From Candidatus Omnitrophota bacterium (GTDB taxonomy: Bacteria; Omnitrophota; Gorgyraeia; Zapsychrales; Zapsychraceae): a DNA stretch of 33,021 bases. How positions within the stretch are numbered: the stretch's first letter is position 1; every line of letters begins with the position of its first letter. The DNA lies in assembly GCA_029567025.1 (NCBI GenBank), contig JAKQLT010000217.1, forward strand, positions 1 to 33,021, read 5' to 3'. Below, piece by piece: positions 3,920 through 23,089 of the stretch. A model generated the notes under the pieces. The model did no database searches. It was not told the DNA's origin and was given only the letters and a program-made list of their open reading frames with translations. Position numbers and translations under genes: made by a program.

Positions 3920-4700
3920 TTTTCTTCAACAGATCATCTCTCATAAACGCCATATCATCGAAACTAAAAAGGAATATTTTTTAAAGTTAAAGGATCATGC
4001 CAGCTGTTTGCAGACACAAAAGTATCATGTTTTTAAAAAAAGCATTTCAGCGCCTGATAAAATAAGTCTTATCGCAGAAATTAAGAAAGCCTCGCCTTCT
4101 AAAGGTCTTATTCGTGAAAATTTTGATGTTCTGTCTATTGCAAAAACTTATGAAGAACAAGGCGCGGCCGGGATTTCTGTCTTGACGGAAGATAGATTTT
4201 TTTTAGGAAGCATATCTTATTTGAAAAAAGTTGCGGATTGTGTTCATGTTCCGGTTTTAGCAAAAGATTTTTTTATCGATGAAGGACAGATTTATGAAGC
4301 CCATGCGCACGGGGCGAGCGCGGTTCTTTTAATTATGGCGATTCTAAAAGATCATGAAGTAAAACAATTAATGAATGTCGCGCGGTCTTTAGACGTGGAT
4401 TGTTTAGTTGAGGTTCACAATCGAGAAGAATTTTTGCGTGCTTTAGATTGTGGCGCTGAAATCATAGGCATTAATAATCGCGATTTAAAAACGTTTCATG
4501 TGGATCTTCGCGTTGCCGAAGAATTAATTCCGCAAATTCCTAAAGATAAAGTGATTGTCGTTGAAAGCGGCATTCATTTTTATGGTGAAGTAAAACGTTT
4601 TAAAGAATTGGGCGCGCAGGCGGTTTTAATCGGAGAAACTTTTATGAGAGAACAAGATATAGCACAAAAAATAAAGGAAGTGATGTATGGTCAAAGTTAA
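3909..4700 (+). CDS. trpC: Indole-3-glycerol phosphate synthase (GTG start overlapping trpD)
   Basis: LIAEIKKASPSKGLIRENFD, GINNRDLKTFHVDL, VESGI motifs. Confidence 0.96.
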   Translation: MEADFLQQIISHKRHIIETKKEYFLKLKDHASCLQTQKYHVFKKSISAPDKISLIAEIKKASPSKGLIRENFDVLSIAKTYEEQGAAGISVLTEDRFFLGSISYLKKVADCVHVPVLAKDFFIDEGQIYEAHAHGASAVLLIMAILKDHEVKQLMNVARSLDVDCLVEVHNREEFLRALDCGAEIIGINNRDLKTFHVDLRVAEELIPQIPKDKVIVVESGIHFYGEVKRFKELGAQAVLIGETFMREQDIAQKIKEVMYGQS

Positions 4701-5298
4701 GGTGTGCGGGATAACGAATTTTGAAGACGCGTCGAAATCCGCGTTTTATGACGCGGCGGCTGTTGGTTTTGTTTTTTGCAAAAAAAGTCCTCGCTATATT
4801 TCGCCGAGTAAGGCCAGAACGATTATTGAAAAGTTACCGCCGTTTGTGACTCCTGTCGGAGTTTTTGTAGATTTAAATGAGCGTGCGGTACGCGATATTT
4901 GCCGTTTTACGCGTATTTCAACGGTGCAGTTTCACGGAGAAGAAGATCAGATGTATTGCAAGCGCTTTAAAGATTATAAAATCATTAAAGCGTTTCGTGT
5001 CGGAGAGTATTTTGATATTGAAAAAGTGAAAAAATACAAAGTAGACGCGTTTCTTTTTGATACATATCAAGAAAATGTTGCCGGAGGCACAGGAAAGACA
5101 TTTAATTGGTATCTTTTAAAAGATATAAAATTTGATAAACCGGTTATTTTGTCCGGCGGCTTAAATCCTCTTAACGTAAAAGAGGCGATAGGGATTCTTA
5201 ATCCTTTTATGGTCGATGTCTCAAGTGGCGTTGAACAATCACCCGGCATTAAAAGTCCAAAATTAATCCGAGATTTCTTTGAGGCGGTAAAAGCGTAG
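4687..5298 (+). CDS. trpF: Phosphoribosylanthranilate isomerase
   Basis: VKVCGITNFEDA, GFVFCKKSPRYI, LSGGLNPLNV, VDVSSGVE motifs. Confidence 0.96.
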   Translation: MVKVKVCGITNFEDASKSAFYDAAAVGFVFCKKSPRYISPSKARTIIEKLPPFVTPVGVFVDLNERAVRDICRFTRISTVQFHGEEDQMYCKRFKDYKIIKAFRVGEYFDIEKVKKYKVDAFLFDTYQENVAGGTGKTFNWYLLKDIKFDKPVILSGGLNPLNVKEAIGILNPFMVDVSSGVEQSPGIKSPKLIRDFFEAVKA

Positions 5299-5338
5299 GA
5301 AGTTTTTTACAGCTTATAATTATGAGAAAGACAATTTC

Positions 5339-7293
5339 ATGAATTTTTTTATTAAGATGGTAGTCCCGTTTTTGCCTGTTTTCGTTTTCTGCTTTGTTTA
5401 TTTATTTTTTTTAACGATTTCTAGGCCCCAATTATTAGGATGGAAAGATTCTTTTTTAAAGAGTGCTGTCGTTTGGGCAGGATTAGTGGTTCTTAGCACT
5501 GAAATATTAAGTATTTGGCACGCGTTAAATTTTGAAAATTTAGTCTTTTTTTGGTGTTTTTTATTCTTTGGGCTTCTTTTTTTATTTTTTATAAATCGTA
5601 AAAAAGTATTTTCTATAGAAATAGAATTTTTAAAAAAAAGATTCCTTTCTTTTTTTTCTTTTTCCTTCGCAGTAATATTAAGTTTTTCCTTAGGGCTTCT
5701 TTTTTTGGCGGTAGTGGCCCCGCCGAATAATTATGATTCAATGACTTATCATATGTCGCGGGTAGAGCATTGGATCCAAAATCAAAGTGTTTTTCATTAC
5801 CCTACTAATATTACTCGTCAATTATTTTCTGCTCCATGGGCAGAGTTTGCGATTCTTCATTTTCAGATATTATCTCGATCAGATTTTTTTGCAAATTTAG
5901 TTCAGTGGACATCTTTTCTCGGAGTTGTGATTGGCGTTATGGCGATAGTTGAGAAAATAGGTGGGGGGGGGTATATGTTCAAACTTTAGCGGCATTATTG
6001 ACAGCTTCTCTTCCCATGGGTATTTTGCAAGCCACAACGACACAAAATGATTTAGTCTTAAGTTTTTGGGTCGTTTCTTTTGTTTATTTTTTGTTCCAAA
6101 CTATTAAAAATAATAATCGCAGTATCCTTCCATATGTTTTTTTAGGGTTATCGGTGGGGATTGGGTTCCTCACAAAAGCTACAATGATTTTTTTTATTGT
6201 TTCTTTTTGTAGTCTGGGAGTGCTTCATTTGTTATGCAAAAGAGAATTCAAAAAATATCTGAAAGGATTTGTTATTGTTTTTTCTATCGCGCTTTTGTTT
6301 AATGTAGGGCATTTTTATAGGAATTATGATTTGGGACAGCACATTCTTATGCCGATTCCAGAGGTGTCAAAAAATGTTGTTAATGAGCGTTTTTCTTTTA
6401 AGGGAGGATTGTCTAATACGATGAGAAATATTCTCCTGCATCTGAATTCGCCTTTTGAAGAAATAAATAATTTGATTTTTTCTTTTTCAAAAAAGATTCA
6501 TCAGTGGATGGATGTCGATTTTGATGATGCTCGGTATACTTATGGAAAAATTAAAGATTTTACTGTGAAAAATCATATTCATGAAGATGTTAGTGGGAAT
6601 TTTTATCATTTTTTGTTTTTGTTTATTTCTTTCATGGCGATTTTTTTATCGAGAAAAAAATATTTTAATAATTTTTATTTTTCTTTCTTGTTTTTTGGGA
6701 ATTTATTGGCTTTTTTTATTTTTTCTTTTTATTTAAAATGGCAACCATGGGGAAGCCGTTTGCAATTGCCTTTTTTTATGCTTGCGATTGCTTCAGTTGT
6801 ATTATTGTTTCAAGATATTAAAACTCGTTGGAGGTTTATTGTAAATGGGATTATTTTTTTCATTGTTTTTTCTTCTAGTCCATATCTTTTAAAAAATCCT
6901 GCTAAACGGTTAATTTCTGCGAAAAAGGCTACTGTTTGGAATACTTCGCGAGAGGATATGTATTTTGTTTATCATGAGAGATTGAGGAAAAAAGAATATA
7001 GAAAAATAGTGAATTATATAAAAGACTCCAACTGCCATGAGATTGGCTTATTTGTTGGGGAAGATGATTGGGAGTATCCCTTTTTTGCTTTGTTTCGAAA
7101 AGAGCAGTATCCTGTTCACATAGAACATGTTTTTGTTAAAAATGCGTCTTATAAATATTCTGACTTTTTATTCTCTCCTTGCGCTGTTATTCTTAAGCGC
7201 GAAATATCTGAAATAGATAGAAAGAAGAACGAAGATTTTTTTAAGTTGAAAAAATATTATTCGGATTATTTTGAATTATATTTAAAGGAGTAA
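5339..7293 (+). pseudogene. Multi-pass membrane glycosyltransferase (GT39/ArnT-like), split into two ORFs by a frameshift at a G9 tract
   Basis: ORFs 5339-5989 and 5998-7293 are consecutive parts of one protein: ...PPNNYDSMTYHMSRVEHW... then VYVQTLAALLTASLPMGILQATTTQNDLVLSFW... The frame changes at tGGGGGGGGGtat (5962-5970). Confidence 0.8.
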
Positions 7294-7701: not shown

Positions 7702-8004
7702 AGTGAAAAATTAATGCGTGTGTATAAGAAATATGATGTGAGTCAGATCAAGCCGCATTTGATGATTTATGGCGATTTAAACGGCAGTTGCGCTAATTGT
7801 AATAATCTTAATGTGAAATTTACCGATATACAATGCCCCGAATGTAAATCTATTTTTAAATATATCGCTTTTCGCAATCCCAAGAATCATATCCCCAAAA
7901 TTTATAAATTAATGGAAGAAAAGCCCGATATGCTGATTATTGATTATGATGATTATCATAAAGCCTTAGGGGATCAGAAAGCCAAGAGCATTTTTAATGA
8001 TTAA
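7699..8004 (+). CDS. Small zinc-ribbon-like protein of unknown function (ORF track start 7681)
   Basis: MSEKLMRVYKKYDVSQIKPHLMIYGDLNGSCANCNNLNVKFTDIQCPECKSIFKY...; two CxxC pairs. Confidence 0.75.
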   Translation: MSEKLMRVYKKYDVSQIKPHLMIYGDLNGSCANCNNLNVKFTDIQCPECKSIFKYIAFRNPKNHIPKIYKLMEEKPDMLIIDYDDYHKALGDQKAKSIFND

Positions 8005-9139
8005 TCGGCCGCGTCTCATTCAAACACTGCAAAAAGTTGTTTCCTATAATTCTGAAAATCCGCCGGGAAATGAATTAGTCTTATCTCGTTTTATCGCCCA
8101 AGATATGAGATCGCTTGGGCTTGATGTGAAATTATATTCTTTTGCCAAAAATCGGCCGAATGTTATCGTCACATTAAAAGGAACATTTGAACGAGAAAAA
8201 GCGCAAAAACAAGCTCTTTTAATTACGCCGCATATTGACACTGTGCCGGCCGGAAAGGGATGGAAATATCATCCGTTAAGCGGTACTATTTCTGGCGGAA
8301 AAATTTACGGTCGAGGCACAAGTGATGATAAAGGAAATTTAGCCTCTTGTATGGAAGTCATGCGCGGTTTAGTTGAGGATAAAATAAAATTGCGTAAAGA
8401 TGTGATTTTAGCCGCGACGGTTGATGAAGAAACAGGAAGCCATTATGGCATAAAACCGCTTTTGGATAAAAAAATATTACGTCCGAAAATTGCGCTTGTC
8501 TTAGATTCTGATGAAGGCGACGCGATTGTCGCTCAAAAAGGATTGATGCATATTCGGATTCAGATTTTTGGAAAAAAAGCGCATGGCGCGTATAATTGGA
8601 AAGGTGTTAATGCGATTGAAATCGCGACGAAAATTATTACGCAATTAAAACAGATGGCTTTTAAATATAAAAAACATCCTTTATTGCGGCCTCCGACGGT
8701 AAATATCGGGACGATTAAAGGCGGTGACAAGGTCAATATCGTTGCGGATTTTTGTGAGTTTTCGGTTGATATTCGTTATTTGCCTGGCATGAATCCGCGC
8801 AATATTTTAAAAGAAGTAAAACATATTATTCGGAAATATATTTCAAAATTTAAAATTCTCGTTGATGATTTACAGTTTCCGTATGAAATAAGTGCGGAAA
8901 ACTCAGCTGTAAAATTGTATGTGGAAACAATCAGAAAATATGGGCTTAAAGGAAAATTAAAGGGAAGCGAAGGCGCGACCGTGATTACATTTTTTCAGGA
9001 ACATAAAATTCCAGCATTTGCATCAGGCTTTAGCGCCAGCGGCACCGCGCACGCAACCGATGAATTTATTCGCATGAACACATTATATAAAGGAACAAAA
9101 GCGCTTGAGGCGTTTATTAAAGAATATGATAAGAAATAA
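7997..9139 (+). CDS. M20 family metallopeptidase (ArgE/DapE/CPG2-like)
   Basis: LLITPHIDTVPAGKGWKYHP, GRGTSDDKGN, ATVDEETGS, GTAHATDEFI motifs. Confidence 0.92.
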   Translation: MINRPRLIQTLQKVVSYNSENPPGNELVLSRFIAQDMRSLGLDVKLYSFAKNRPNVIVTLKGTFEREKAQKQALLITPHIDTVPAGKGWKYHPLSGTISGGKIYGRGTSDDKGNLASCMEVMRGLVEDKIKLRKDVILAATVDEETGSHYGIKPLLDKKILRPKIALVLDSDEGDAIVAQKGLMHIRIQIFGKKAHGAYNWKGVNAIEIATKIITQLKQMAFKYKKHPLLRPPTVNIGTIKGGDKVNIVADFCEFSVDIRYLPGMNPRNILKEVKHIIRKYISKFKILVDDLQFPYEISAENSAVKLYVETIRKYGLKGKLKGSEGATVITFFQEHKIPAFASGFSASGTAHATDEFIRMNTLYKGTKALEAFIKEYDKK

Positions 9140-9848
9140 GAACATTTTTTTATCTGCAATAATTGTTTTTATGTGCTTTTGGGTTTCGCCGACGCAAGGA
9201 GAAGAAAGAAATTTTTTTGGTGAAACGATTTCCTATCGCATAAAACAATTAGGCATGTCAGGAACCGCGACTTTAACGATTGACGGGCTCACAACGATTG
9301 AAGGCAAAGAAGCGCTGCTCATTACTTTTGTCGCTAAAGGATTTACGTTTTTTGATGAGGAAAAAATATATTTGGATCCAAAAACCTATTATCCGATTAT
9401 CGTAAAACGAGATTTAGATATTTTTGGCAATAAAGAAAAAATTGTGGAATATTATGATAATGAAAAAGGTTCTGTAAAAATTATTAATTCTCAAGATCCT
9501 CATAAGCCGCGCATTATTGAAAAAGGTAAGCCTATTGAAAATATTTACGGATTTATTTATCGTCAGCGTATTAAAGGGACATTTCATATAGGAGATGAGT
9601 TTTCTGTTCAGTTTCCGACACAAGAAGTGACGATTAAAGCGGTTGATATACAAAAAATGAATGTGGCTAAGGAAGATTATGAAGTTGTTTTTATGCAAGG
9701 CAAACCACGTAATCTTAAAATTTATTTTGATATAAGCGAAAATAAAATTCCTGTTCGTCTGGAAGGCACGTTTGGTTTTGGCGGCGCGGTAATGATTATG
9801 ACCGATTATAAAGAGACCAAAGACCAAAGACCAAAGACTAAAGACTAA
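9126..9848 (+). CDS. DUF3108-type exported protein (ORF track start 9105); C-terminal ETKDQRPKTKD encoded by a heptad repeat
   Basis: Signal peptide MIRNKNIFLSAIIVFMCFWVSPTQG; FFGETISYRIKQLGMSGTATLTI; ...FGFGGAVMIMTDYK. Confidence 0.75.
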   Translation: MIRNKNIFLSAIIVFMCFWVSPTQGEERNFFGETISYRIKQLGMSGTATLTIDGLTTIEGKEALLITFVAKGFTFFDEEKIYLDPKTYYPIIVKRDLDIFGNKEKIVEYYDNEKGSVKIINSQDPHKPRIIEKGKPIENIYGFIYRQRIKGTFHIGDEFSVQFPTQEVTIKAVDIQKMNVAKEDYEVVFMQGKPRNLKIYFDISENKIPVRLEGTFGFGGAVMIMTDYKETKDQRPKTKD

Positions 9849-9849
9849 A
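9815..9849. repeat. Five tandem heptads (GACCAAA x3, GACTAAA x2), left flank of IVS-like element
   Basis: gaccaaa gaccaaa gaccaaa gactaaa gactaaa. Confidence 0.95.
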
Positions 9850-9853
9850 AAAC

Positions 9854-10213
9854 ATGAGAGATTATAGAAATATTAATGCGTATAAGCATGCTGATGAATT
9901 GGCAATTGAAGTTTATAAAACAACAAAGAATTTCCCGAAGGGAGAATCTTTCGGTCTTATATCTTAATTAAGAAGGGCGGCAGTTTCAGTTGCAGCTAAT
10001 ATTGTAGGAGGCTCCAGTCGTCAACATAAAAAAGATTATTTAAATTTTCTTTTTGTATCAAGAGGATCTTTATGTGAAACAGATTATTTGTTAAATTTGT
10101 CTTTTAAATTGGGTTATCTAAAAGCAAATGAGTTTGACCTATTAGATGAGAAAAGAAAGGAAGTGGCAAAAACGCTATTTGGCCTTATTGAATCTGTCAA
10201 AAAAGAAGTTTAG
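9854..10213 (+). pseudogene. Four-helix-bundle (S23 / 23S rRNA intervening-sequence type) protein with one in-frame stop
   Basis: MRDYRNINAYKHADELAIEVYKTTKNFPKGESFGLIS*LRRAAVSVAANIVGGSSRQHKKDYLNFLFVSRGSLCETDYLLNLSFKLGYL...; TAA at 9965-9967 where family members usually have Gln (S-Q-L-R-R-A). Confidence 0.88.
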
Positions 10214-10247
10214 GTCATTGGTCGTTGGTCTTTTGTCATTAGTCTAA
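10213..10247. repeat. Five inverted heptads (GGTCATT GGTCGTT GGTCTTT TGTCATT AGTCTAA), right flank of IVS-like element
   Basis: Reverse complement matches the GACYAAN heptads at 9815-9849; ends 4 nt before the trpB ATG. Confidence 0.88.
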
Positions 10248-10251
10248 AAAT

Positions 10252-11427
10252 ATGTTATCTAACAAAAATGGGCGATTTGGGCAATTCGGCGGAAGATTTG
10301 TTCCCGAGACACTCATGTCTTTATTAGAAGACCTTGAGAAAGTTTATTTTTCTTTGAAGAAAGATAAAAAATTTCATGCGGAACTTGATTTCTATTTAAA
10401 AGAATTTGCCGGCCGTCCCACTAATCTTTATCATGCCAAACGCTTAAGCGCGTATTATAAAACGCTTAAAATTTATCTTAAACGCGAAGATTTGCTGCAT
10501 ACCGGCGCGCATAAAATCAATAATACATTAGGCCAGATTCTTGTTGCTAAACGGATGGGAAAAGCGCGTATTATCGCCGAGACTGGCGCCGGACAGCATG
10601 GTGTCGCGACCGCGGCTGTGGCCGCGCTTTTTGGCTTAAAATGCGAAGTTTATATGGGTGAAGAAGATATGAAACGTCAGGCGCTTAATGTTTATCGTAT
10701 GCAATTATTCGGCGCAAAAGTTATTCCGGTTACCAGCGGATCAAAAACGCTTAAAGATGCGATGAACGAAGCGATTCGTGATTGGGTCACAAATGTTCAC
10801 AATACATTTTATTTAATTGGCTCCGTCGCCGGGCCTCATCCTTATCCGACGATGGTTCGCGATTTTCAATCGGTTATTGGCCAAGAAGCGCGCGCGCAAT
10901 TTTTAAAGAAAGAAAAATCCTTGCCGGATTATGTTTTAGCTTGTGTCGGAGGTGGAAGTAATGCCATGGGAATTTTTCATGCTTTTTATAATGATAAGAA
11001 AGTTAAATTTATCGGCGTTGAGGCTGCCGGACACGGATTAAATACACAACAACATTCAGCTTCTTTGCATAAAGGACATTTAGGCGTTTTGCATGGAAGT
11101 AAAAGTCAAGTATTGCAAACCTCCAACGGTCAGATAAAACTTGCGTATTCAATTGCCGCGGGGCTTGATTATCCTGGCGTTGGACCGGAACATTCTTTTT
11201 ATAAGGAAAGCGGCCGCGCCCAATATGTGGCTGTAACGGATAAAGAAGCGGTTTCGGCACTTAAGCTTTTATCTAAAGTGGAAGGAATTATTCCAGCGAT
11301 GGAATCCGCGCATGCGCTTAGTTATTTAGAGAAATTAGCGAAGAAGGTAAAAGATAAGGCTTCTGTGATTGTTTGTTTGTCCGGTCGTGGCGATAAAGAT
11401 ATGGAAACGATCAAGAATTTTATTTAG
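10252..11427 (+). CDS. trpB: Tryptophan synthase beta chain
   Basis: [57 protein letters not shown]. Confidence 0.98.
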
Positions 11428-11433
11428 TTTTTT

Positions 11434-11514
11434 TGTCATCCTTGTGGATGCAGGGAACTCAGATTTGAAAAGGTTGTGGCAATAAAAGAGATTCCTGCCT
11501 GTGCAGGAATGACA
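11434..11514. repeat. Dispersed TGTCATyCC...GGAATGACA repeat between trpB and trpA
   Basis: tgtcatccttgtggatgcaggga...gattcctgcctgtgcaggaatgaca; related ends at 32377-32475. Confidence 0.75.
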
Positions 11515-11523
11515 GATAGGAAA

Positions 11524-12321
11524 ATGATGAATCGCATTGATGAAAAATTTAAAGAATTAAAAGCGAAAAAAAAGAAGGCGTTTATTGCTTTTATAACAGC
11601 CGGTTATCCGGATTTAAAAACAACAAAAGAATTAGTTTTATCATTTGCTCGCGTTGGCGTTGATATTATTGAACTCGGTGTTCCGTTTTCTGATCCTTTA
11701 GCTGATGGCCCAACTATTCAAACAGCGTCTTATAAAGCGCTGCAAAAAGGCATAACATTAGAGAAAATTTTAAAATTAGTCGCTGAAATTAGGGAAATTT
11801 CTCAAATCCCGATTGTCCTTATGAGTTATTATAATCCAATTTTTTATTATGGTGAAAAACGTTTTGTTGAATGTGCGAAAAAATGCGGTGTAGATGGCGT
11901 AATTATTCCGGATTTGCCGCCGGAAGAAGCAAAAAATTTAATCGTTACAGCTAAAAAGAATGATTTTTCAACTGTGTTTTTTCTTTCGCCGACAACAAAA
12001 AAACCGCGCATAAAAAATATTGTGAATGCCTCAAGTGGTTTTATTTATTTTGTTTCAGTTTCAGGCGTGACAGGCGTACGTAATCAGTTTTCATCATCGA
12101 TTAAAGGAAAAATTATCGCGGTAAAGAAAATAACAAAAAAACCGATTTGTATTGGTTTTGGTATTTCAACGCCTCAACAAGTTAAAACAATGTCGCAAAT
12201 TTCTGACGGCGTTATTGTCGGAAGCGCGATTGTCAGTGAAATTTTAAAGCATGAAGGAAGAAAAGATCTTGTTCGAAAAGTTTCTTTTTTTGTCTCTCAA
12301 TTAACCAGCGAATTATCCTAA
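11524..12321 (+). CDS. trpA: Tryptophan synthase alpha chain (ORF track start 11476 extends into a repeat)
   Basis: FITAGYPDLKTT, ELGVPFSDPLADGPTIQ, GFIYFVSVSGVTGVR, GFGISTPQQV. Confidence 0.95.
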   Translation: MMNRIDEKFKELKAKKKKAFIAFITAGYPDLKTTKELVLSFARVGVDIIELGVPFSDPLADGPTIQTASYKALQKGITLEKILKLVAEIREISQIPIVLMSYYNPIFYYGEKRFVECAKKCGVDGVIIPDLPPEEAKNLIVTAKKNDFSTVFFLSPTTKKPRIKNIVNASSGFIYFVSVSGVTGVRNQFSSSIKGKIIAVKKITKKPICIGFGISTPQQVKTMSQISDGVIVGSAIVSEILKHEGRKDLVRKVSFFVSQLTSELS

Positions 12322-12326
12322 TCAGT

Positions 12327-13613
12327 ATGTATCAAAAAGAAATCTTACAAAATGGTTTTCGTCTTGTAACCCATCAGATGCCTAAACGCGATAGCGTTTC
12401 TTTGGGTTTTTGGTTTGGCGTCGGAGGGCGGCATGAAACATTGTCTCAAAAAGGGCTGGCCCATGTCATAGAGCATATGGCCTTTAAGGGAAGCCGAAAA
12501 TATTCATCGCGAGAAATTAAAGAGCGCGTTGAAGGCGTCGGCGGTATGCTTAATGCCTTTACGTCAGAAGAACAAACGTGTTTTTTTGCAAAAGTCCCAT
12601 CAAAATTTTTAAAAGAGGCCTTTGATGTTTTGTCTGATATTTCGTTTTTTCCGCAATGGAGACAGAAGGATTTTATAAAAGAAAAATCCGTTATTATGGA
12701 AGAAATAAAAATGTATCACGATCAGCCGCAATATTTGGTTATGGAATTATTGCATAAACTTTTGTGGCCGAATAATTCTTTAGGCGCGCCTCTTGCCGGA
12801 ACCGTTGATTCTGTCGCCGGGCTAACGTTAGAGGATCTTAAAAGTTTTCATCATAATTATTATCATTCCGGAAATGCTGTTTTGGTGGTGTGCGGAGATG
12901 TTTGCCATAGGGAAGTTAAAAAAATAGTAAAAAAGAAATTAGCGTCTTTAAAAAAACAAGAAGTATTGTTTTTTGATAAAGTGAATGAAGCTTTTTCCTC
13001 CCCGCGTATTCATTGTTATAAAAAAGATATCGAACAAACGCATTTGGCCATAGGGTTTCCTTCTTATGCCTATAGGGATGAGAGAAAATACGCGTTAGAA
13101 CTTTTGTCTATTATTTTAGGAGAAAATATGTCGAGCCGTTTGTTTGCGCAAGTGCGCGAGAAAAAAGGGCTGGCGTATGCTATTCAATCTAAGGAAAAAA
13201 CTTTTGAGGACACAGGATTTTTTGTGATACGTGCAGGGGTGGATAATAAAAAAGTTGTTGAAGCCACCGATGTTATTTTAAAAGAACTTATTAAAATAAA
13301 AGAAAAAAGCATTTCTTCCGATGAGCTTATTCGCGCGCGTGAGTATAAAATAGGACATCTCTTATTAGAAATAGAAGATACGTTAGAGCATATGTTATGG
13401 TTAGGAGAACATCTAATCTTTCGAAATAAAATAGAGTCTGTCAAAAATCTTGTAGAGAAATTTAAGAAAATAGGAAAGAAAGATATTGGCTACGTGGCGC
13501 AAGATATTTTTAAGCATAATAAACTAACTTTAGCGATTATCGGTCCTGTGGAAGAAAAAGATGAAAAGAAATTAAATGACTTTGCCTCACCCCGGGGATG
13601 GGGCAAGGGTTAG
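12327..13613 (+). CDS. M16 family zinc peptidase
   Basis: HVIEHMAFKGS (HxxEH) and GGRHETLSQKGLAH; C-terminus encoded by a palindromic repeat. Confidence 0.95.
   Translation: MYQKEILQNGFRLVTHQMPKRDSVSLGFWFGVGGRHETLSQKGLAHVIEHMAFKGSRKYSSREIKERVEGVGGMLNAFTSEEQTCFFAKVPSKFLKEAFDVLSDISFFPQWRQKDFIKEKSVIMEEIKMYHDQPQYLVMELLHKLLWPNNSLGAPLAGTVDSVAGLTLEDLKSFHHNYYHSGNAVLVVCGDVCHREVKKIVKKKLASLKKQEVLFFDKVNEAFSSPRIHCYKKDIEQTHLAIGFPSYAYRDERKYALELLSIILGENMSSRLFAQVREKKGLAYAIQSKEKTFEDTGFFVIRAGVDNKKVVEATDVILKELIKIKEKSISSDELIRAREYKIGHLLLEIEDTLEHMLWLGEHLIFRNKIESVKNLVEKFKKIGKKDIGYVAQDIFKHNKLTLAIIGPVEEKDEKKLNDFASPRGWGKG
13581..13612. repeat. GC-rich palindrome, copy 2, overlapping the M16 3' end and the secretin stop
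   Basis: ttgcctcaccccggggatggggcaagggtt. Confidence 0.75.
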
Positions 13614-14959
13614 TCGATTTTTATAATTTTCGGTGTGATGAAAATAAGAAGGTCTCGGTTGGTTTTTTCTTTAGATTTATGTTTAAATAAATTCCCCACA
13701 ACAGGAATGCTTCCTAAGACAGGAACTTTAGAAACAGTTTCCACCGTTTTTTCTTTTATTAGCCCGCCGATAACCAGCGTGTCATTATTTCTCACGGTTA
13801 CTTTTGTAGAAGCGGATTGTGTATAAAATATGGGAATCGTCGCATCCATGCCAGAGGCGGAAGAGAAATTACGCTCGCCGACTTTTTCGCTGATTTCTGG
13901 AGTGGCTTCAAGGGTTACAAATTCATTATTATTGATTTTGGGCGTTACGTTTAAAACCACGCCATATTCCATCCAGTCAAACCCTGTAATTTCCCATTGC
14001 CCGATTTCTCCGCTGTAAGAATATTTAGGAACCGGGTCCTGGCTGACGACCTCAATTTTTGCTGGATTATTATCTAATGTCGTAATTCTTGGAGCTGAAA
14101 GCATTTTTGTGTCTTTGTCTTCAAAAAGAGCTTGCATCACAATAGAAAAATCTGAAGCATCCAAAGTCCCGAAGCTAAAAATATTGCTGATTTTTGGATC
14201 ATAAGGGCCTCCGGGATAGGCTTCTATAGCTGACGGGAAATCATCCGAGAAATAACGGGTATTTTTAGATTTTTTGTTAAAAGGAAATGTTGTAGCTTTT
14301 TTAGCGCCTATGGCTGTCCCAGAGATATTCCATTTAATACCGAGATTTTTTGATGCGTCTGCGTTGGTTTCAACGACTTTGACTTCAATAAGCACTTGCG
14401 GAATTTGCTCGTCTAAAAATTCTAAGCTATTTTCAAGGATTTTTAAATTAGCCACCGTGTCTGTTGCAATAACAATATTTGTCCTTTCGTCAACGACTAA
14501 TCGTCCGCGTTCTCCCAATAATTGGGTTAAAATATCTTTAACTGCTGTTACTTTCGCGAAATTAAGTTTAAAACGACGCGTTGTGATTGTTTCCTGGTCT
14601 TGTAAAAGAGGAGACGAGAGTGGATTTGGGTTCGCTTCTTTGGCCAATTCTTCTAAAGAATTGATAGTACGTTCAATCCCCATAATAGCGAGTAATGAAT
14701 CATTGACCGTTACAGTATTATTTTTTTCATCAATGAGGATTTCGCCGTTTTCTGTTAAAAGTTTTGATAAGGAGTCTTTAAAATCAGCGATTTTGATATG
14801 TTTGGGTTGAAAAGAGCGCGTGACCCAGCGGCTCGAGGATGGCGTTTTTATAACATTGTCGTTATCGGACAAAGAAGACGTTCCTTGCGCCCGTCCTAAA
14901 GAAGAAAAGCAAAAGATAAAGATAATAAAAAATATTAGAAATAATTTTAAATTTTTAAT
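13610..14959 (-). CDS. Secretin (GspD/PilQ superfamily); proposed ATT start at 14959 gives 449 aa with a signal peptide (ORF track start 14872)
   Basis: Secretin_N-like repeats, VLIEVKVVETNADASKNLGIKW, MLSAPRITTLDNNPAKIEV, VIGGLIKEKTVETVSKVPVLGSIPVVGNLFKHKSKEKTNRDLLIFITPKII. Upstream in frame: (I/M)KNLKLFLIFFIIFIFCFSSLGRAQGTSSLSDNDN. Confidence 0.9.
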   Translation of the reverse strand: MKNLKLFLIFFIIFIFCFSSLGRAQGTSSLSDNDNVIKTPSSSRWVTRSFQPKHIKIADFKDSLSKLLTENGEILIDEKNNTVTVNDSLLAIMGIERTINSLEELAKEANPNPLSSPLLQDQETITTRRFKLNFAKVTAVKDILTQLLGERGRLVVDERTNIVIATDTVANLKILENSLEFLDEQIPQVLIEVKVVETNADASKNLGIKWNISGTAIGAKKATTFPFNKKSKNTRYFSDDFPSAIEAYPGGPYDPKISNIFSFGTLDASDFSIVMQALFEDKDTKMLSAPRITTLDNNPAKIEVVSQDPVPKYSYSGEIGQWEITGFDWMEYGVVLNVTPKINNNEFVTLEATPEISEKVGERNFSSASGMDATIPIFYTQSASTKVTVRNNDTLVIGGLIKEKTVETVSKVPVLGSIPVVGNLFKHKSKEKTNRDLLIFITPKIIKID

Positions 14960-15566: not shown

Positions 15567-16730
15567 ATGAAAAATCTAAAAAGAATTCTTAATATCAAAC
15601 TTCCGCAAAAACAATCCGCGTTTTTATGGGGAGCTAGAAAAACAGGGAAGACAACTTATCTTAAAGAGAGATTTCCTAAAAGCATTGTATATGATTTTTT
15701 GAAAACGGATTTATTTTTTGAGATCTCAAAGAATCCTTCGCTTTTACGTGAACGATTGCTGGCACAAGATGAAACGGCCCTTAAAGAACCTATCATTCTT
15801 GATGAAGCACAGAAGGTTCCTCAAGTTCTGGATGAAGTGCATTGGTTAATAGAAAATAAAGGTTTAAGATTTGTCCTCTGTGGATCAAGCGCCAGAAAGC
15901 TTAAGAAAGGGCATGCTAATCTTTTGGGTGGCAGGGCTTGGCGATATGAATTGTTTCCTCTTGTTAGTGCGGAAATTGGAAAAATTGATTTGCTGCGTGC
16001 TTTAAATCAGGGGCTCATTGCCAGTCATTATTTAGAAGAGGAACAATCGTCTAAGAAATCTTTAGAGGCTTATTTGCAGGATTATCTACGAGAAGAGGTT
16101 TTTGCTGAAGGGTTGACACGCAACATTCCAGCTTTTTCGAGATTTTTTGATGCTTTCGGATATTCCCATGGGGAGTTAACAAACTATACTAACATTGCGC
16201 GGGAATGCGGCGTTGATTCAAAAACGGTTAAAGAATATTATCAAATTTTGGTAGACACTTTGTTGGCGGTCAGGGTGGAACCTTTTAAAAAAAGACAATC
16301 GCGGCAAGTTATTTCTAAAGCTTCAAAATATTATTTGTTTGATGTGGGCGTTGCAGGATATTTGACAAAAAGACATTTAACAGAATGTAGGGGTTCAGAG
16401 TTTGGAAAGGCGTTCGAACATTTTATTTTGATGGAAATCGTTGCGTATAAATCCTATTCAAGTAAGGGTTTTACAATAAATTTTTGGAGAACGAAATTGG
16501 GCGTTGAGGTTGATTTTGTATTGGCACAAGGCGAAGTGGCCATTGAGGTTAAAGGTTCTAACCAAATTGAAAGAAGAAATATGAACGGAGTAGAAGTTTT
16601 TGCCCAAGCCTTTAATCCTAAAAGAAGCATTATTGTCTGCAATGAAAAAGAAAAGAGATTGTGTGGAAAAATAGAAATATTACCCTGGCGGATTTTTTTA
16701 GAGCAACTCTGGGCAGGCAAAATATTGTAA
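15567..16730 (+). CDS. ATP-binding protein of the AAA_14/DUF4143 family
   Basis: WGARKTGKTTYLKERFP (P-loop), IILDEAQKVPQVLDEVHWLI, LCGSSARKL; C-terminal region with EVDFVLAQGEVAIEVKGS; SD cggagg. Confidence 0.9.
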   Translation: MKNLKRILNIKLPQKQSAFLWGARKTGKTTYLKERFPKSIVYDFLKTDLFFEISKNPSLLRERLLAQDETALKEPIILDEAQKVPQVLDEVHWLIENKGLRFVLCGSSARKLKKGHANLLGGRAWRYELFPLVSAEIGKIDLLRALNQGLIASHYLEEEQSSKKSLEAYLQDYLREEVFAEGLTRNIPAFSRFFDAFGYSHGELTNYTNIARECGVDSKTVKEYYQILVDTLLAVRVEPFKKRQSRQVISKASKYYLFDVGVAGYLTKRHLTECRGSEFGKAFEHFILMEIVAYKSYSSKGFTINFWRTKLGVEVDFVLAQGEVAIEVKGSNQIERRNMNGVEVFAQAFNPKRSIIVCNEKEKRLCGKIEILPWRIFLEQLWAGKIL

Positions 16731-16758
16731 ATGGACCGGCCGATTAAATTTTCAGAAA

Positions 16759-16920
16759 TTATGCTGACGCATTTCCGTTATATTTGCGCCAAGGGCGTTT
16801 TGAGGCAGCACTCTCTTTGTTAAAAGTGTCAAAATACTGTTTGGACGTCATATAGTTCAAGGATTGATGCGGATAGTCGGTATTGTAGTCGACAATACAA
16901 AAGATGTGGAAATCGAGAAA
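16759..16920 (-). pseudogene. C-terminal remnant of an IS transposase (rve-type integrase, IS3/IS481-like)
   Basis: Minus strand translates FLDFHIFCIVDYNTDYPHQSLNYMTSKQYFDTFNKESAASKRPWRKYNGNASA*; YNtdyPHQSLNY is the usual transposase C-terminal motif. Frame is closed upstream. Confidence 0.8.
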
Positions 16921-16950
16921 TTAAATGAAGGCATTTTTTAGCGTTGGCTA

Positions 16951-16979
16951 TTGACAAATGTGCTATTTTGAAGTATTCT
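16951..16979 (+). promoter_or_regulatory. Promoter of the AbiE operon
   Basis: TTGACA-N17-TATTCT. Confidence 0.75.
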
Positions 16980-16982
16980 TCG

Positions 16983-17018
16983 TTTCAGATAATGGACAAT
17001 AAAAGGATTTATCTGAAA
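16983..17018. promoter_or_regulatory. Inverted repeat TTTCAGATAA...TTATCTGAAA between promoter and start codon, candidate AbiEi operator
   Basis: Perfect 10-bp arms (16983-16992, 17009-17018) reaching the A of the ATG. Confidence 0.7.
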
Positions 17019-17629
17019 TGAACAAAGAAGAGGTTATTAAACAGTTTTTAGATCAAAAAATGCTGGTTTTTTCTTTTGAGGATTTTTGCGCGTTTTATCC
17101 TCAAGAAAATCCGGAAACGATTAAGAAGTGCCTTTTTCGTCTAAAAAAAAGAGGCTGGTTGTCTTCTTTGCGTAAAGGCCTTTATGAAATAACATTTCCG
17201 CAGGATTCTAATCTTCCTGATTTATATTTAGCCAATAAAATTTACGCGCCGTCTTATGTGTCGCTTCAAACCGCATTGTCGCATTATGGCATTATTCCTG
17301 AAGTCGCTATGGCGGTAACCTCCATTACGAGTAAAACAACACGGCAATTTAAAAATAAATACGGTTTGTTTATTTACCGCGCGGTTCAGCCTAAAATGTT
17401 TTGTGGTTATCAGATTGAAAAATATAATGGTTATAATGTGTTAATTGCAGAGCCAGAAAAAGCCTTGATGGATTATATTTATTTTCAAACATTTCGAGGC
17501 CAGAAATTTGATAGAGAAGCGCATCGTATCGATATGAAAAGAGTGAAGAAGATGAATAAAAAGAAAATTCAAAATTATGCGCAGTTATTCGGGCTAAAAT
17601 TAAAGGAGTCGCTTTATGCTCACATTTGA
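17018..17629 (+). CDS. AbiEi-type antitoxin (type IV TA)
   Basis: N-terminal winged-helix-like segment, LRKGLYEITFP, YVSLQTALSHYGIIPE, AEPEKALMDYIYF; overlaps downstream nucleotidyltransferase-like gene. Confidence 0.88.
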   Translation: MNKEEVIKQFLDQKMLVFSFEDFCAFYPQENPETIKKCLFRLKKRGWLSSLRKGLYEITFPQDSNLPDLYLANKIYAPSYVSLQTALSHYGIIPEVAMAVTSITSKTTRQFKNKYGLFIYRAVQPKMFCGYQIEKYNGYNVLIAEPEKALMDYIYFQTFRGQKFDREAHRIDMKRVKKMNKKKIQNYAQLFGLKLKESLYAHI

Positions 17630-18410
17630 GGCTTTAAGCGAAGATGCAAAATTAAGAGGCATGCCAACGGCTAATACTCGCGGTATTTTACGGGAATATC
17701 TTCAGATTTTGATTTTAAAAGAGATGTATCAATTGCCGGCGGGCAGAAAGCTTTTCTTTACTGGTGAAACCTATTTAAGGCTGGCGCATCAAACGAAAAG
17801 ATTCTCAGAAAATTTAGATTTTAATGTCAGCGCTATGAGTAAGATTGAATTTGAAAGTGTTTTACAAAAAATCCAGGCCACGCTTAAGAAAACGGGTGTT
17901 AATACAAATTTGGAATTTGAGCATTGGGGAAATCTTTTTGTGGCTGAGCTCATTTTCCCAGATATCGAGAAATTTTATGGGATCGTTTTACCTCATTCTA
18001 AAAAAGAGGGAATTGTCATTAAGGTTGAAGCAAACAATCCAAAGTGGAACATTAAAACACAAACGCTCGCCATTACAGGTTTCGGACAAATGTATCCAGT
18101 TATTTGCACGGATAAAGGCGCTTTGTTTGCTGATAAAATTGACGCTTTGTTAAAGAAAAATCGAGCAAGGCATCTTTTTGATATTATTTTTATGTTATCT
18201 AAGAAATATCCGGTTGATAGCTACGTATTAAAATCGTTGGGAATTACAGAAAATCCTTTTGATGTTATTGTTAAATGTGTCAACAGTTTTTCTATTGAAG
18301 AATTAAAGAAGCAAGCGGAATCTTTAAGGCCTTTTCTTTTTGATGAAAGAGAGGCTGATTTAATTATTAACGCTCCTGCTATTGTAAAACAGTTGCTTGA
18401 GATGGATTAA
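17616..18410 (+). CDS. AbiEii-type nucleotidyltransferase toxin (divergent active-site motifs)
   Basis: FFTGETYLRLAHQTKRFSENLDFNV and DKIDALLKKNRARHLFDIIFML correspond to GGTxLRL..RFSxDLDF and xKxxALlxRxxaRDlfDxxfL. Confidence 0.85.
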   Translation: MLTFEALSEDAKLRGMPTANTRGILREYLQILILKEMYQLPAGRKLFFTGETYLRLAHQTKRFSENLDFNVSAMSKIEFESVLQKIQATLKKTGVNTNLEFEHWGNLFVAELIFPDIEKFYGIVLPHSKKEGIVIKVEANNPKWNIKTQTLAITGFGQMYPVICTDKGALFADKIDALLKKNRARHLFDIIFMLSKKYPVDSYVLKSLGITENPFDVIVKCVNSFSIEELKKQAESLRPFLFDEREADLIINAPAIVKQLLEMD

Positions 18411-18881: not shown

Positions 18882-19030
18882 ATGGCGAAAAACGTATCGA
18901 TTAAAAAAATGCTACAGGTAAGGACAATACAGTTCGGGGAGAGGTAGCAAATCCTGGTCCAGATAAAGGTTGTCATTATCTTCCGAAGATCTCTAACCCG
19001 TGTGAAACAGACGACCCAATGTATCAATAA
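18882..19030 (+). CDS. Candidate RiPP precursor, 49 aa if a -1 slip (or one missing A) occurs at A7 (18903-18909); otherwise a 21-aa peptide
   Basis: Strong SD AGGAGG at 18871-18876. Frame 0: MAKNVSIKKMLQVRTIQFGER*. Frame -1 after the A7 run: MAKNVSIKKNATGKDNTVRGEVANPGPDKGCHYLPKISNPCETDDPMYQ*. Next gene is a radical SAM/SPASM enzyme. Confidence 0.55.
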
Positions 19031-19044
19031 AAAGTATATCTTAA

Positions 19045-19098
19045 TTTTTTTAAGAAGATTATTAATTTATGCGTTTTTTAATAATCTTCTTAAAAAAA
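19045..19098. repeat. Perfect 21-bp inverted repeat with 12-nt loop between precursor and maturase
   Basis: TTTTTTTAAGAAGATTATTAA-tttatgcgtttt-TTAATAATCTTCTTAAAAAAA. Confidence 0.9.
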
Positions 19099-19223
19099 AT
19101 ATAATTTTAGTCGTAAAATTTGAACGATTTTGTTTCTATAAAATCATTAGTAATATCCCCACCCTTTTTTTAAAGAAATTATTAAATAAAAAAAGATATG
19201 AATTTGAATGTAAGGAGTCCTGA

Positions 19224-20864
19224 TTGAAAATGAAATGTTCGAAAATAATTAAGCCAATGCTTTTATTCCCATTTATTGCTAATGAGAAATATTATGTTTA
19301 TTTGCCTGTTTTGGGGGAAGTGTGGAATATTGATAGAAATGTTTTATATGAGGCTTTAAAACTTTTAAGTTCTTTACGTGTTGAAATGAGCGTTAGTGTT
19401 TTTAAAAAAAAATTAGTGGATAAGACAGCTGTTTCTGAACAGGATTGGAAGGGTGTTGAAGAATTGATTTTAACACTACAGACTCCTCAAAACACGAGAT
19501 TTTTAAAAAGGTCTGAAATTAATAAACGATTTTATCGAGAAAAAGAAATCATTGAAAAACGATATAATGAAACGTTAAAAATATATCGTTTGGGAAAAAA
19601 CAACGATGCAATTTCTGGTAAGCTTATATTAAATTTAACAGATCGTTGTAATTTTAAATGCAAATATTGTGTAGAGAGGGGAGATTTGTATTATGAACCA
19701 TCTGATCGTTGCTTGGGGAAAATGACTAGGGAAATAGGTTTTAATGCTATTCAAGACTTCTTATTTCAGCGAAAAAGAAGTGTTGTTAAGGAAGTTGAGA
19801 TTGTTTTTTTTGGCGGAGAACCTCTGATAGAGATGAATCTTTTAGTGGATCTTATTGAATTTGCAAAGAAAACACATAAAGGGTTATCCATGCGGCCTTG
19901 TTTAGTCCTAAAAGTTGCGACGAATGGGACATTACTAAACAAAACAAATGTTAGATATTTTGTTAAGGAAAACATTTGTTTACAAATCAGCCTTGATGGC
20001 CCTAAGGAAATACATGATAAATTTAGGCATAATATCGCGGGATTAGGCACGTTTAAGGCGGTAAGTAAAGCTGTAAGGATGCTTAAAAGAGAAGCCTTTG
20101 AAATGAGAAAGTTTGATTACTTTAGTAAATGTGTGTTTTTTATCGGGACATTTACAGATAATGCCGATAAGGAAAAAATAAAGAATTTTTTCTTACGGAC
20201 ACCTCTTCTTGTTTCTCTTCATGGAAAAAGGGCAATGTTTTTTTTGAACGCGATTTCTCCCTGTGGCCTGAAGGATTGTTATAGCTTTATAGAAAGAAAA
20301 ACAACAGCGCTTGAGAACTATGATTCAATAAAAAAGGATATTAACTCATTGAAAGATTCAAATGTCCCAAGAGATTATAAAATAAGCATACAAAGGCGAT
20401 TGAATTATTTTTGTGAAAAGAATGCTCAAAAGTTTTTGACCCCATCCCCCAGGAAAGAGCCTTGCGTATTAAGTGATAAATTGTGCAATATAGTTCAAGA
20501 AACAAAAACATTTGTAGAGTCTGATGGAACTATATATTTCTGTTCTCTTTGTAAAATTAAAGAGTTGGCCATAGGGAGTTATGCGGATAAAGGAATTGAT
20601 TTTGAGAGAATTAAAATTATTATGCAAGAATATTTGCAGTTCGGTAAAAAATGTTATAGTTGTCCCATACAGCCAGTATGTTCTCTTTGTTATCGAGATG
20701 GGAATGTTAATGGTCAGAAATATTTTTTTCCGCATAAAAATTCAAAGAATTGTGTGGATAATTTTAGACGGGTTCGCGAAAATTTTTCCTTTTTTTATGG
20801 ATTGATTGATGTTGTCCCCGAATTTAAGGTTTTTTATGAGAGATGGTTGAATAGGAGAAGATAG
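19224..20864 (+). CDS. Radical SAM/SPASM peptide-modifying enzyme (RiPP maturase-like)
   Basis: LNLTDRCNFKCKYCVE (CxxxCxxC), FFGGEPLIEMNLL, SLDGPKEIHDKFR; Cys-rich C-terminus FVESDGTIYFCSLCK...CYSCPIQPVCSLCYRDG (SPASM); SD aaggag. Confidence 0.92.
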   Translation: MKMKCSKIIKPMLLFPFIANEKYYVYLPVLGEVWNIDRNVLYEALKLLSSLRVEMSVSVFKKKLVDKTAVSEQDWKGVEELILTLQTPQNTRFLKRSEINKRFYREKEIIEKRYNETLKIYRLGKNNDAISGKLILNLTDRCNFKCKYCVERGDLYYEPSDRCLGKMTREIGFNAIQDFLFQRKRSVVKEVEIVFFGGEPLIEMNLLVDLIEFAKKTHKGLSMRPCLVLKVATNGTLLNKTNVRYFVKENICLQISLDGPKEIHDKFRHNIAGLGTFKAVSKAVRMLKREAFEMRKFDYFSKCVFFIGTFTDNADKEKIKNFFLRTPLLVSLHGKRAMFFLNAISPCGLKDCYSFIERKTTALENYDSIKKDINSLKDSNVPRDYKISIQRRLNYFCEKNAQKFLTPSPRKEPCVLSDKLCNIVQETKTFVESDGTIYFCSLCKIKELAIGSYADKGIDFERIKIIMQEYLQFGKKCYSCPIQPVCSLCYRDGNVNGQKYFFPHKNSKNCVDNFRRVRENFSFFYGLIDVVPEFKVFYERWLNRRR

Positions 20865-20933: not shown

Positions 20934-23089
20934 AAACAAATTTATTTTTTACCTACCAAAAATACATTCTCCCTTATTTAGGCAAAAGCGTTCTATCTCT
21001 TGTGATTGGCACAACGGCTATGATTTTTGGTATGATAACGCCGCTGATCACGAAGGTCTCCATTGATTACGCGTATCCTAATCGAGATATTTTTCTTTTA
21101 ACATTATTAATTCTTGCCGGAATTGTCCTTTTTCTTATTCGACGATTTTTTGATAGCATCGCCGGATATTTGGATATGTTTACGGATACGGACCTTGGCA
21201 TAAAGTTAAAAACAAAATTTTATGATAAGCTCCAAGAGCTTTCTTTAAAATTCCACAGTGAACAGCAAGCCGGCGATTTGGTCTATCGCATGGATGATGA
21301 TATTTCAACCGTTACATCCATGATCACGCAATTTATCGCGACTTCTTTGCAAACCTTAGCCCAGCTTTTCTTTTTATTATTTATCTGTTTTAAATTCGAT
21401 TGGCGTTTTACGGCGCTGGCTTTAACGGGCATTCCTATTTATTTTCTGGAAACCATGGTTTTTTCGAAAAAGCGTAAAGATGTTAGAGAAAAATCTTTAA
21501 AAATTCATTCCAGCCTTCAAAGTTATCTGCAGGAACGTGTGCCTGCTATAAAAATGATTAAATCTTTAGGCCGCGAGAAATTTGAATCCACGCTTTTTAA
21601 GAATAAAATAAAAGAAGTTTTTTTTGTGACTCGTCAAAGTCATGTGGTTTCATTTTTGAATTCTTTCGCGGATTCCTTTATTAGCACTATTTGGCTCGCG
21701 ATTCTTGGCTGGTATGGCGGCTATCGTGTGATTACCGGGAATTTAAGTATCGGCGAGCTTTTGGCTATTACCGCGTACGTTTCTCAAATTTACGGGCCGG
21801 TTATGCAAATCGGCGATATTTATAAATTTATGATCGAGGGCATGGTTTCGGTCAAACGTATTGATGAGGTTATTTCAGGAAAACCTGGAGTTGAAGACGC
21901 TCCCGACGCAAAAGAGCTCAAAGATGTCAAAGGCGATATTCTTTTTAAATCGGTTGATTTTAGTTATGTGCCGGAAAAACCTCTTATGAAGGATATTAAT
22001 TTAGCAATTAAAGCCGGGACATCCGTAGCCCTTGTGGGCCCAAGCGGCGCGGGAAAAACAACATTTACAGATTTGATTATGCGGTTTTATGATCCGGATA
22101 AAGGCGATATTTTTATTGATGGCCATAATTTAAAAAGCATCACACAAGAATCGTTGCGTAAGGCGGTGACTATTGTTAATCAGGAAATTACAATTTTTAC
22201 CGGGACAATTAAAGAAAATATTAAATATGGAAAAGAAAATGTGAGTTTTGAGGATATTGTCTCCGCGGCAAAAATGGCTAATGCCCATGAATTTATTGAA
22301 AAGCTTCCCGATGGATATGACACGATGCTCACTGAACGCGGGCGTAATTTATCCGGCGGACAAAGGCAAAGACTTACTATTGCGCGCGCGCTTATTCGTA
22401 ATCCTAAAGTTTTGATTTTGGATGAGGCGACTTCCGCGCTTGATCCTGAAAGCGAAGCGCGTATTCATGATGCGATGATTAAATTTAAAGAAGGCCGCAC
22501 GGTTGTTACGATTGCGCATAAACTTTCTACTATTGTTGATGCGGATGAAATAATGTTTTTTGAAAAAGGTCAGATTTCTGAACGCGGGATTTTTAATGAA
22601 CTTATGGCCATGAAAGGCCGTTTCGCTCGGTTTTTTGAAGTGGAGTTTGGAAATTTCCGTCATTTTTCAGATCGTTTGTCCCAGGAAGCCTTGCGTACCA
22701 AGCGTTATAAACGGCCATGTTCTTTTATGATGGTTCAGTTGCGAGATTTGGGGTTGTTAGCTCAAAAAATAGGCGAGGAAAATTTACGCGAAGTGTCTTT
22801 ACAAATAGAAGATGTGATACGTCTTTCTATTCGTGAAGTGGATTTTACGGCGAAATATCATGAAAATCGTTTTGTTGTGGGTTTGCCTGAAACTCCATCA
22901 GATGGCGCGCGTGTTGCCGCTGAGAGATTAGAAAAAAGAATCAGAGAATATTCTTTTGTAAAAAAAGATGAAGAAATAAAGGTTTCGCCTGTTATAGGCA
23001 TCGCGACGATAGGAGAAGACGCTCATACCACCACAGATCTTTATGTGCGCGCGGAAAAAATGATCGAAGATAAGTTGGCAGGAGTTTAA
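20927..23089 (+). CDS. MsbA-like ABC exporter (TMD-NBD) with C-terminal degenerate GGDEF-like domain
   Basis: Walker A GPSGAGKT, LSGGQRQR, LILDEATSALD, then ~140 extra aa: FMMVQLRDLGLLAQKIGEENLREVSLQIEDVIRLSIREVDFTAKYHENRFVVGLPETPSDGARVAAERLEKRI... Confidence 0.92.
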   Translation: MKKTNLFFTYQKYILPYLGKSVLSLVIGTTAMIFGMITPLITKVSIDYAYPNRDIFLLTLLILAGIVLFLIRRFFDSIAGYLDMFTDTDLGIKLKTKFYDKLQELSLKFHSEQQAGDLVYRMDDDISTVTSMITQFIATSLQTLAQLFFLLFICFKFDWRFTALALTGIPIYFLETMVFSKKRKDVREKSLKIHSSLQSYLQERVPAIKMIKSLGREKFESTLFKNKIKEVFFVTRQSHVVSFLNSFADSFISTIWLAILGWYGGYRVITGNLSIGELLAITAYVSQIYGPVMQIGDIYKFMIEGMVSVKRIDEVISGKPGVEDAPDAKELKDVKGDILFKSVDFSYVPEKPLMKDINLAIKAGTSVALVGPSGAGKTTFTDLIMRFYDPDKGDIFIDGHNLKSITQESLRKAVTIVNQEITIFTGTIKENIKYGKENVSFEDIVSAAKMANAHEFIEKLPDGYDTMLTERGRNLSGGQRQRLTIARALIRNPKVLILDEATSALDPESEARIHDAMIKFKEGRTVVTIAHKLSTIVDADEIMFFEKGQISERGIFNELMAMKGRFARFFEVEFGNFRHFSDRLSQEALRTKRYKRPCSFMMVQLRDLGLLAQKIGEENLREVSLQIEDVIRLSIREVDFTAKYHENRFVVGLPETPSDGARVAAERLEKRIREYSFVKKDEEIKVSPVIGIATIGEDAHTTTDLYVRAEKMIEDKLAGV

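Follow-up and report, generated by a model that had tools for sequence, protein, structure and literature searches.

A type IV ABC exporter fused to a degenerate GGDEF domain in a RiPP cluster of Omnitrophota: a candidate c-di-GMP-gated exporter

The window analyzed here, a stretch of 33,021 nucleotides from a Candidatus Omnitrophota bacterium (contig JAKQLT010000217.1), holds a gene in which an ABC exporter runs on, beyond its nucleotide-binding domain, into a C-terminal domain of the GGDEF type (Table 1). Read from its translation, the protein is a complete type IV ABC exporter (a half-transporter), whose transmembrane domain is joined to a nucleotide-binding domain bearing Walker A (GPSGAGKTT), LSGGQ, Walker B (VLILDE) and, further downstream, the H-loop histidine H531; since all four can be read, the ATPase motor looks intact. 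Pfam finds neither a C39 nor a C39-like domain in the protein, the membrane domain beginning at residue 22, and by its domain content the exporter is not of the peptidase-containing PCAT/AMS type. Additionally, it scores under every specific NCBIfam cut-off. The GGDEF match is well above threshold (Pfam E 8.8e-14, 52 bits versus a cut-off of 23.8). The original prediction, made from the DNA letters, had placed a GGDEF-like domain after a complete nucleotide-binding domain, at 22650-23089; the Pfam match at 22652-23068 falls inside this interval, and the architecture is confirmed by Pfam, by the predicted fold and by a second copy of the gene at 72% identity.

Table 1. Coordinates of the features described, as positions in the window
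Feature	Position	Strand	Evidence
ABC exporter-GGDEF fusion gene, 720 aa	20927..23089	+	ORF; ABC_membrane, ABC_tran and GGDEF above Pfam cut-offs; 72% full-length orthologue
ABC transmembrane domain, residues 22-292	20990..21802	+	PF00664, E 1.9e-38
Nucleotide-binding domain, residues 355-503	21989..22435	+	PF00005, E 2.1e-34
Degenerate GGDEF-fold domain, residues 576-714	22652..23068	+	PF00990; AlphaFold and Foldseek
Degenerate signature HENRF, residues 645-649, replacing GG[DE]EF	22859..22873	+	Translation; HENYF in orthologue
I-site RxxD, R636-E-V-D639	22832..22843	+	Kept in Aceula copy and in 31/31 related GGDEF domains
R667, candidate third I-site arginine (AER motif)	22925..22927	+	Both copies; 97% of related GGDEF domains
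Radical SAM/SPASM peptide maturase, 546 aa, CxxxCxxC	19224..20864	+	PF04055, E 2.1e-10; directly upstream of exporter
Short HlyD-like membrane adaptor, 171 aa	23092..23607	+	PF13437, E 8.5e-5; begins 2 bases past exporter stop
Candidate RiPP precursor region (tentative)	18882..19030	+	Ribosome site, MAKNVSIKK..., A7 run, -1 frame Cys stretch
Inverted repeat, 24-nt arms, 96%	19042..19101	+	Between precursor region and maturase

The genes flanking the exporter give it a recognizable setting. A radical SAM/SPASM maturase and an exporter share one operon, as in RiPP clusters, and from this gene content a modified peptide is the probable cargo. The maturase finds its best NCBIfam match in CcpM (E 6.5e-44) and is nearest to the CcpM and PapB families, scoring under the cut-offs of both. 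The candidate precursor region is tentative: behind a strong ribosome site, the frame opened by its start codon stops at 18947, and the Cys-containing -1 frame that follows the A7 run ends at 19030, a stop-free stretch of a length common by chance (1694 of 2000 shuffles). A sequencing error, a pseudogene and slippage are all possible explanations of this frame break. Just upstream of the cluster, positions 15567-18410 carry a DUF4143/AAA_14 ATPase and an AbiEii-type gene, the latter preceded by a 203-aa gene at the position of its antitoxin, a content that suggests a variable island amid housekeeping genes. Ordinary genes fill 7997-14872, among them M20 and M16 peptidases, tryptophan synthase alpha, a PLP enzyme at the trpB position and, on the opposite strand, a secretin.

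A scan of genome contigs returned one full-length relative, in Candidatus Aceula lacicola (Omnitrophota), which belongs to a different family of the same order as the organism of the window. The two fusion proteins are 72% identical over residues 1-719, with no internal gap; the Aceula protein reads HENYF where the window has HENRF, and Pfam recognizes its GGDEF domain with 49.6 bits. Its locus runs in the order candidate precursor, two maturases, UPF0489 peptide arginase, exporter-GGDEF and adaptor. The candidate precursor (1053-1199), the positional counterpart of the region in the window, is a plausible peptide of 48 aa (MAIRKKIGGSVKSSNGCRVNRQRDLDTMQCCSASSVKYPRRTISSPEI). Its ribosome site is clear, and downstream of it lies an inverted repeat with perfect 17-nt arms (1272-1313); in both loci an inverted repeat separates the candidate precursor from the first maturase. 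The arginase (4691-5848) retains intact DxHxD and LDIDMDYFSC, the motifs given for the peptide arginases FlmR and OhkR (PMC12703449), and scores 106.7 bits against a family cut-off of 350; no peptide arginase occurs in the window. The paper that describes these arginases makes no mention of Omnitrophota.

Conservation between the two loci is uneven, falling from 72% identity for the exporter to 45% for the HlyD-like adaptor beside it and 28% for the maturases. In the window, the maturase is also lower in G+C (32%, third positions 27%) than the exporter (39%, third positions 36%). It thus seems that the exporter stayed stable while the maturation genes beside it were swapped.

Within the order, where all genomes were searched, the fusion is present in 2 of 81; the other genome of the genus to which the window belongs gave none. 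A domain-profile sample of 384 genomes across the phylum gave no fusion beyond that of the window and that of Aceula. Genomes of three other phyla (399, 294 and 388) yielded none either, a soft negative given that scoring took in only the first 7-10 candidates of each genome and that the profile ran without a control on the two positive genomes. Altogether, the fusion was found in two genomes only and did not turn up in about 1,500 others sampled, a patchy distribution that fits loss or transfer inside the order. None of the best approximately 80 ABC relatives has a comparable C-terminal extension, and a similar maturase, arginase or adaptor is absent from their loci within the flanks examined. 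A Photobacterium plasmid match spanning both parts proved to be a PAS-GGDEF cyclase and not an ABC protein, and long GGDEF-bearing frames in two other Omnitrophota loci are GAF/PAS cyclases rather than fusions. The original statement, that no described system with this fusion was known to its author, agrees with the open-access papers searched; subscription journals and protein-architecture databases lay outside that scope, so priority for the ABC-GGDEF combination is not established. The parts of the fusion are all known, and their combination is new as far as the open-access literature searched goes.

Structure prediction supports the assignment of the C-terminal domain. Modeled by AlphaFold from a 33-sequence alignment, it reached a pLDDT of 86.3 and a pTM of 0.82, and Foldseek matched this model to GGDEF domains, with TM scores of 0.83 to 3ign, 0.86 to 6d9m and 0.85 to 4iob; PleD entries were also among the matches, within the range of 0.83-0.86. 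The 33-sequence alignment includes canonical GGDEF domains, which aid the model, and a shallow model built from two sequences (pLDDT 66) agrees without them, its top PDB matches being solely GGDEF structures. A non-GGDEF fold would have spoken against the original identification of a degenerate GGDEF domain; with TM scores at this level to solved GGDEF domains, the predicted fold is that of GGDEF.

The residues that the domain has lost and kept are sharply partitioned. We aligned the domain alone with its canonical GGDEF relatives in Omnitrophota (31 domains), among which 35 columns reach a conservation of 85% or more. Following PleD, we assign 13 of these columns to the catalytic A-site; in cyclase residues they are D604, D606, F608, K609, N612, D613, H617, G620, D621, G645, G646, E647 and E648. 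Both fused proteins keep 0 of these 13 and, jointly, 16 of the 22 other conserved columns (P = 1.8e-5), and both copies carry other residues where GTP and metal would be held (D604Q/H, N612A/S, D621R/N, E647N). The domain should not, as originally predicted from its signature, make c-di-GMP: with HENRF or HENYF in place of the signature and all A-site columns changed, it does not read as an active diguanylate cyclase.

The inhibitory site presents the opposite picture. The signature region of the window protein reads R636-E-V-D639-FTAKY-H645-E-N-R-F649, and R667 would complete the triad as the putative equivalent, by alignment, of PleD R390 and PelD R402. R636 and D639 stand at -9 and -6 relative to the signature, which is the canonical I-site spacing, described as invariant for the RxxD of PleD (PMC2170427). 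All three I-site residues are kept in both copies, a result that is not striking among the columns outside the A-site (P = 0.36), since these residues are near-universal in relatives. Inheritance could account for the retention, since each of the 31 closest canonical domains has RxxD. The conservation pattern is stronger as an argument against an enzyme or a GTP sensor than as proof of a c-di-GMP receptor. A dead A-site together with RxxD at canonical spacing is the sequence profile of degenerate c-di-GMP receptors of the PelD/PopA type, and retention of the I-site favors c-di-GMP over GTP as the putative ligand. The nucleotide-sensing or dimerization role first proposed for the domain still seems its best reading; the I-site motif, the surrounding RiPP operon and the Aceula copy were not part of that first proposal.

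Divergence between the two genes indicates how long this state has been maintained. At synonymous sites the two have reached saturation (pS 0.72-0.76), with a dN of 0.16-0.18 in the exporter part and 0.36 in the GGDEF part, corresponding to 74-78% and 56% identity; the GGDEF part evolves faster. As dN lies far under the saturated dS, the frame and fold of the GGDEF part have long been kept by selection, more loosely than the exporter, and the codon comparison places the domain under purifying selection.

The network that such a receptor would need is present. Besides the fusion, the window's genome has five strong GGDEF matches, all with intact GG[DE]EF, and 11 PilZ proteins above cut-off, and it thereby encodes a c-di-GMP network of canonical cyclases and PilZ proteins; the Aceula genome has nine PilZ proteins. 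c-di-GMP acts on polysaccharide secretion, type II-like ATPases and proteolysis, and in the literature searched we found no direct control of an ABC exporter by c-di-GMP through a fused receptor. Precedents exist for each half of such a design: the degenerate GGDEF domains of PelD (PMC7112168) and PopA (PMC12564702) bind c-di-GMP through RxxD, and c-di-AMP bound to CBS domains of the ATPase subunit gates or locks the ABC transporter OpuA/BusA (PMC10243994).

The best explanation of the locus, to which we give an even chance, is a RiPP exporter gated by c-di-GMP via its fused degenerate GGDEF receptor. In the mechanism that we infer, in homodimer formation and c-di-GMP binding as in gating direction and cargo identity, the protein would export a radical-SAM-modified peptide as an ABC homodimer and carry a cytoplasmic c-di-GMP receptor at the end of each ATPase domain, and the joining of two half-transporters would pair two GGDEF-like domains beneath the ATPase dimer. 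When abundant, c-di-GMP would bind at the retained I-sites (RxxD and R667) and alter the packing of the two domains or crosslink them, and this change would hold back or free the ATPase dimer in its cycle of opening and closing. In that case, export of the peptide would track the c-di-GMP level immediately, without transcription. That c-di-GMP gates the exporter directly, tying release of the modified peptide without delay to a lifestyle second messenger, we rate slightly below an even chance. The faster evolution of the GGDEF part and the small base of two sequences weigh against the gated reading, and binding at the I-site could equally serve the stability of the domain alone.

The main rival is a ligand-free scaffold, in which the GGDEF fold holds the ATPases together or offers a docking surface, for instance to the maturase, to a peptidase or to another cyclase. 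Complete loss of the catalytic site and the faster evolution of the domain would suit such a role, and GGDEF domains that work through protein contacts have been reported (PMC9061725, PMC5635695). Preservation of the I-site triad and its spacing in both copies, despite saturated synonymous divergence, weighs against a scaffold, which we consider rather unlikely. Sensing of another nucleotide, for instance GTP or (p)ppGpp, would couple export to the growth state; GTP binding by degenerate GGDEF domains has precedents, and the fold matches include PleD entries that contain ppGpp and pppGpp, but the replaced GTP and metal residues of the A-site make this improbable. Slightly less credible still is a decaying or functionless appendage, the relic of a chance fusion: rarity and faster evolution would agree with it, whereas the reading frame has been kept, dN stays far under dS across two families, and the fold is predicted with confidence. 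Residual cyclization or hydrolysis of a nucleotide at an unusual active site is very improbable, for although some variant signatures such as AGDEF are reported to be active (PMC3974145), here the loss extends past the signature to all the conserved contacts tested for metal, base and phosphate. Finally, the window comes from a metagenome assembly of 241 contigs, but the identical junction in the independent Aceula assembly, where the adaptor gene likewise adjoins, effectively refutes an assembly accident joining two genes.

If the gated-exporter reading is true, the fusion would be for c-di-GMP what OpuA is for c-di-AMP, would show how the release of a peptide might be timed to surface or biofilm life in a RiPP producer, and would provide a testable regulatory module for exporters. 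The locus also adds a RiPP cluster for Omnitrophota, a phylum almost uncultured.

Among known systems, PelD, which acts in Pel polysaccharide secretion in Pseudomonas and Bacillus, resembles the fused domain in its lost signature and its I-site RxxD, and the fused domain would share its c-di-GMP binding and post-translational control of export (PMC2170427, PMC7112168). Unlike the fusion, PelD is a separate inner-membrane protein on a polysaccharide synthase, and its binding of c-di-GMP is proven where that of the fusion is putative. PopA of Caulobacter shares a GGDEF domain with a dead A-site, and its working I-site has been shown (PMC12564702) where that of the fusion is predicted; it is a response-regulator adaptor for proteolysis, without a transporter. 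In OpuA/BusA and OpuCA, the ABC ATPase subunit bears a gating domain that binds a cyclic dinucleotide (PMC10243994), to which the putative receptor of the fusion may be likened, although these are importers with CBS domains and c-di-AMP, as opposed to an exporter with a GGDEF fold and, presumably, c-di-GMP. Exporters of the NHLM_ABC1, HlyB and McjD types share the type IV architecture, the nearby RiPP maturases and the HlyD-like partner, whereas the fusion lacks a C39 or C39-like domain and has an extra C-terminal domain. Lastly, the Aceula cluster joins radical SAM maturases with a UPF0489 arginase as the flm and ohk peptide arginase clusters do (PMC12703449), and differs from them in a precursor candidate without DD(I/V)LF and in an arginase under the family cut-off.
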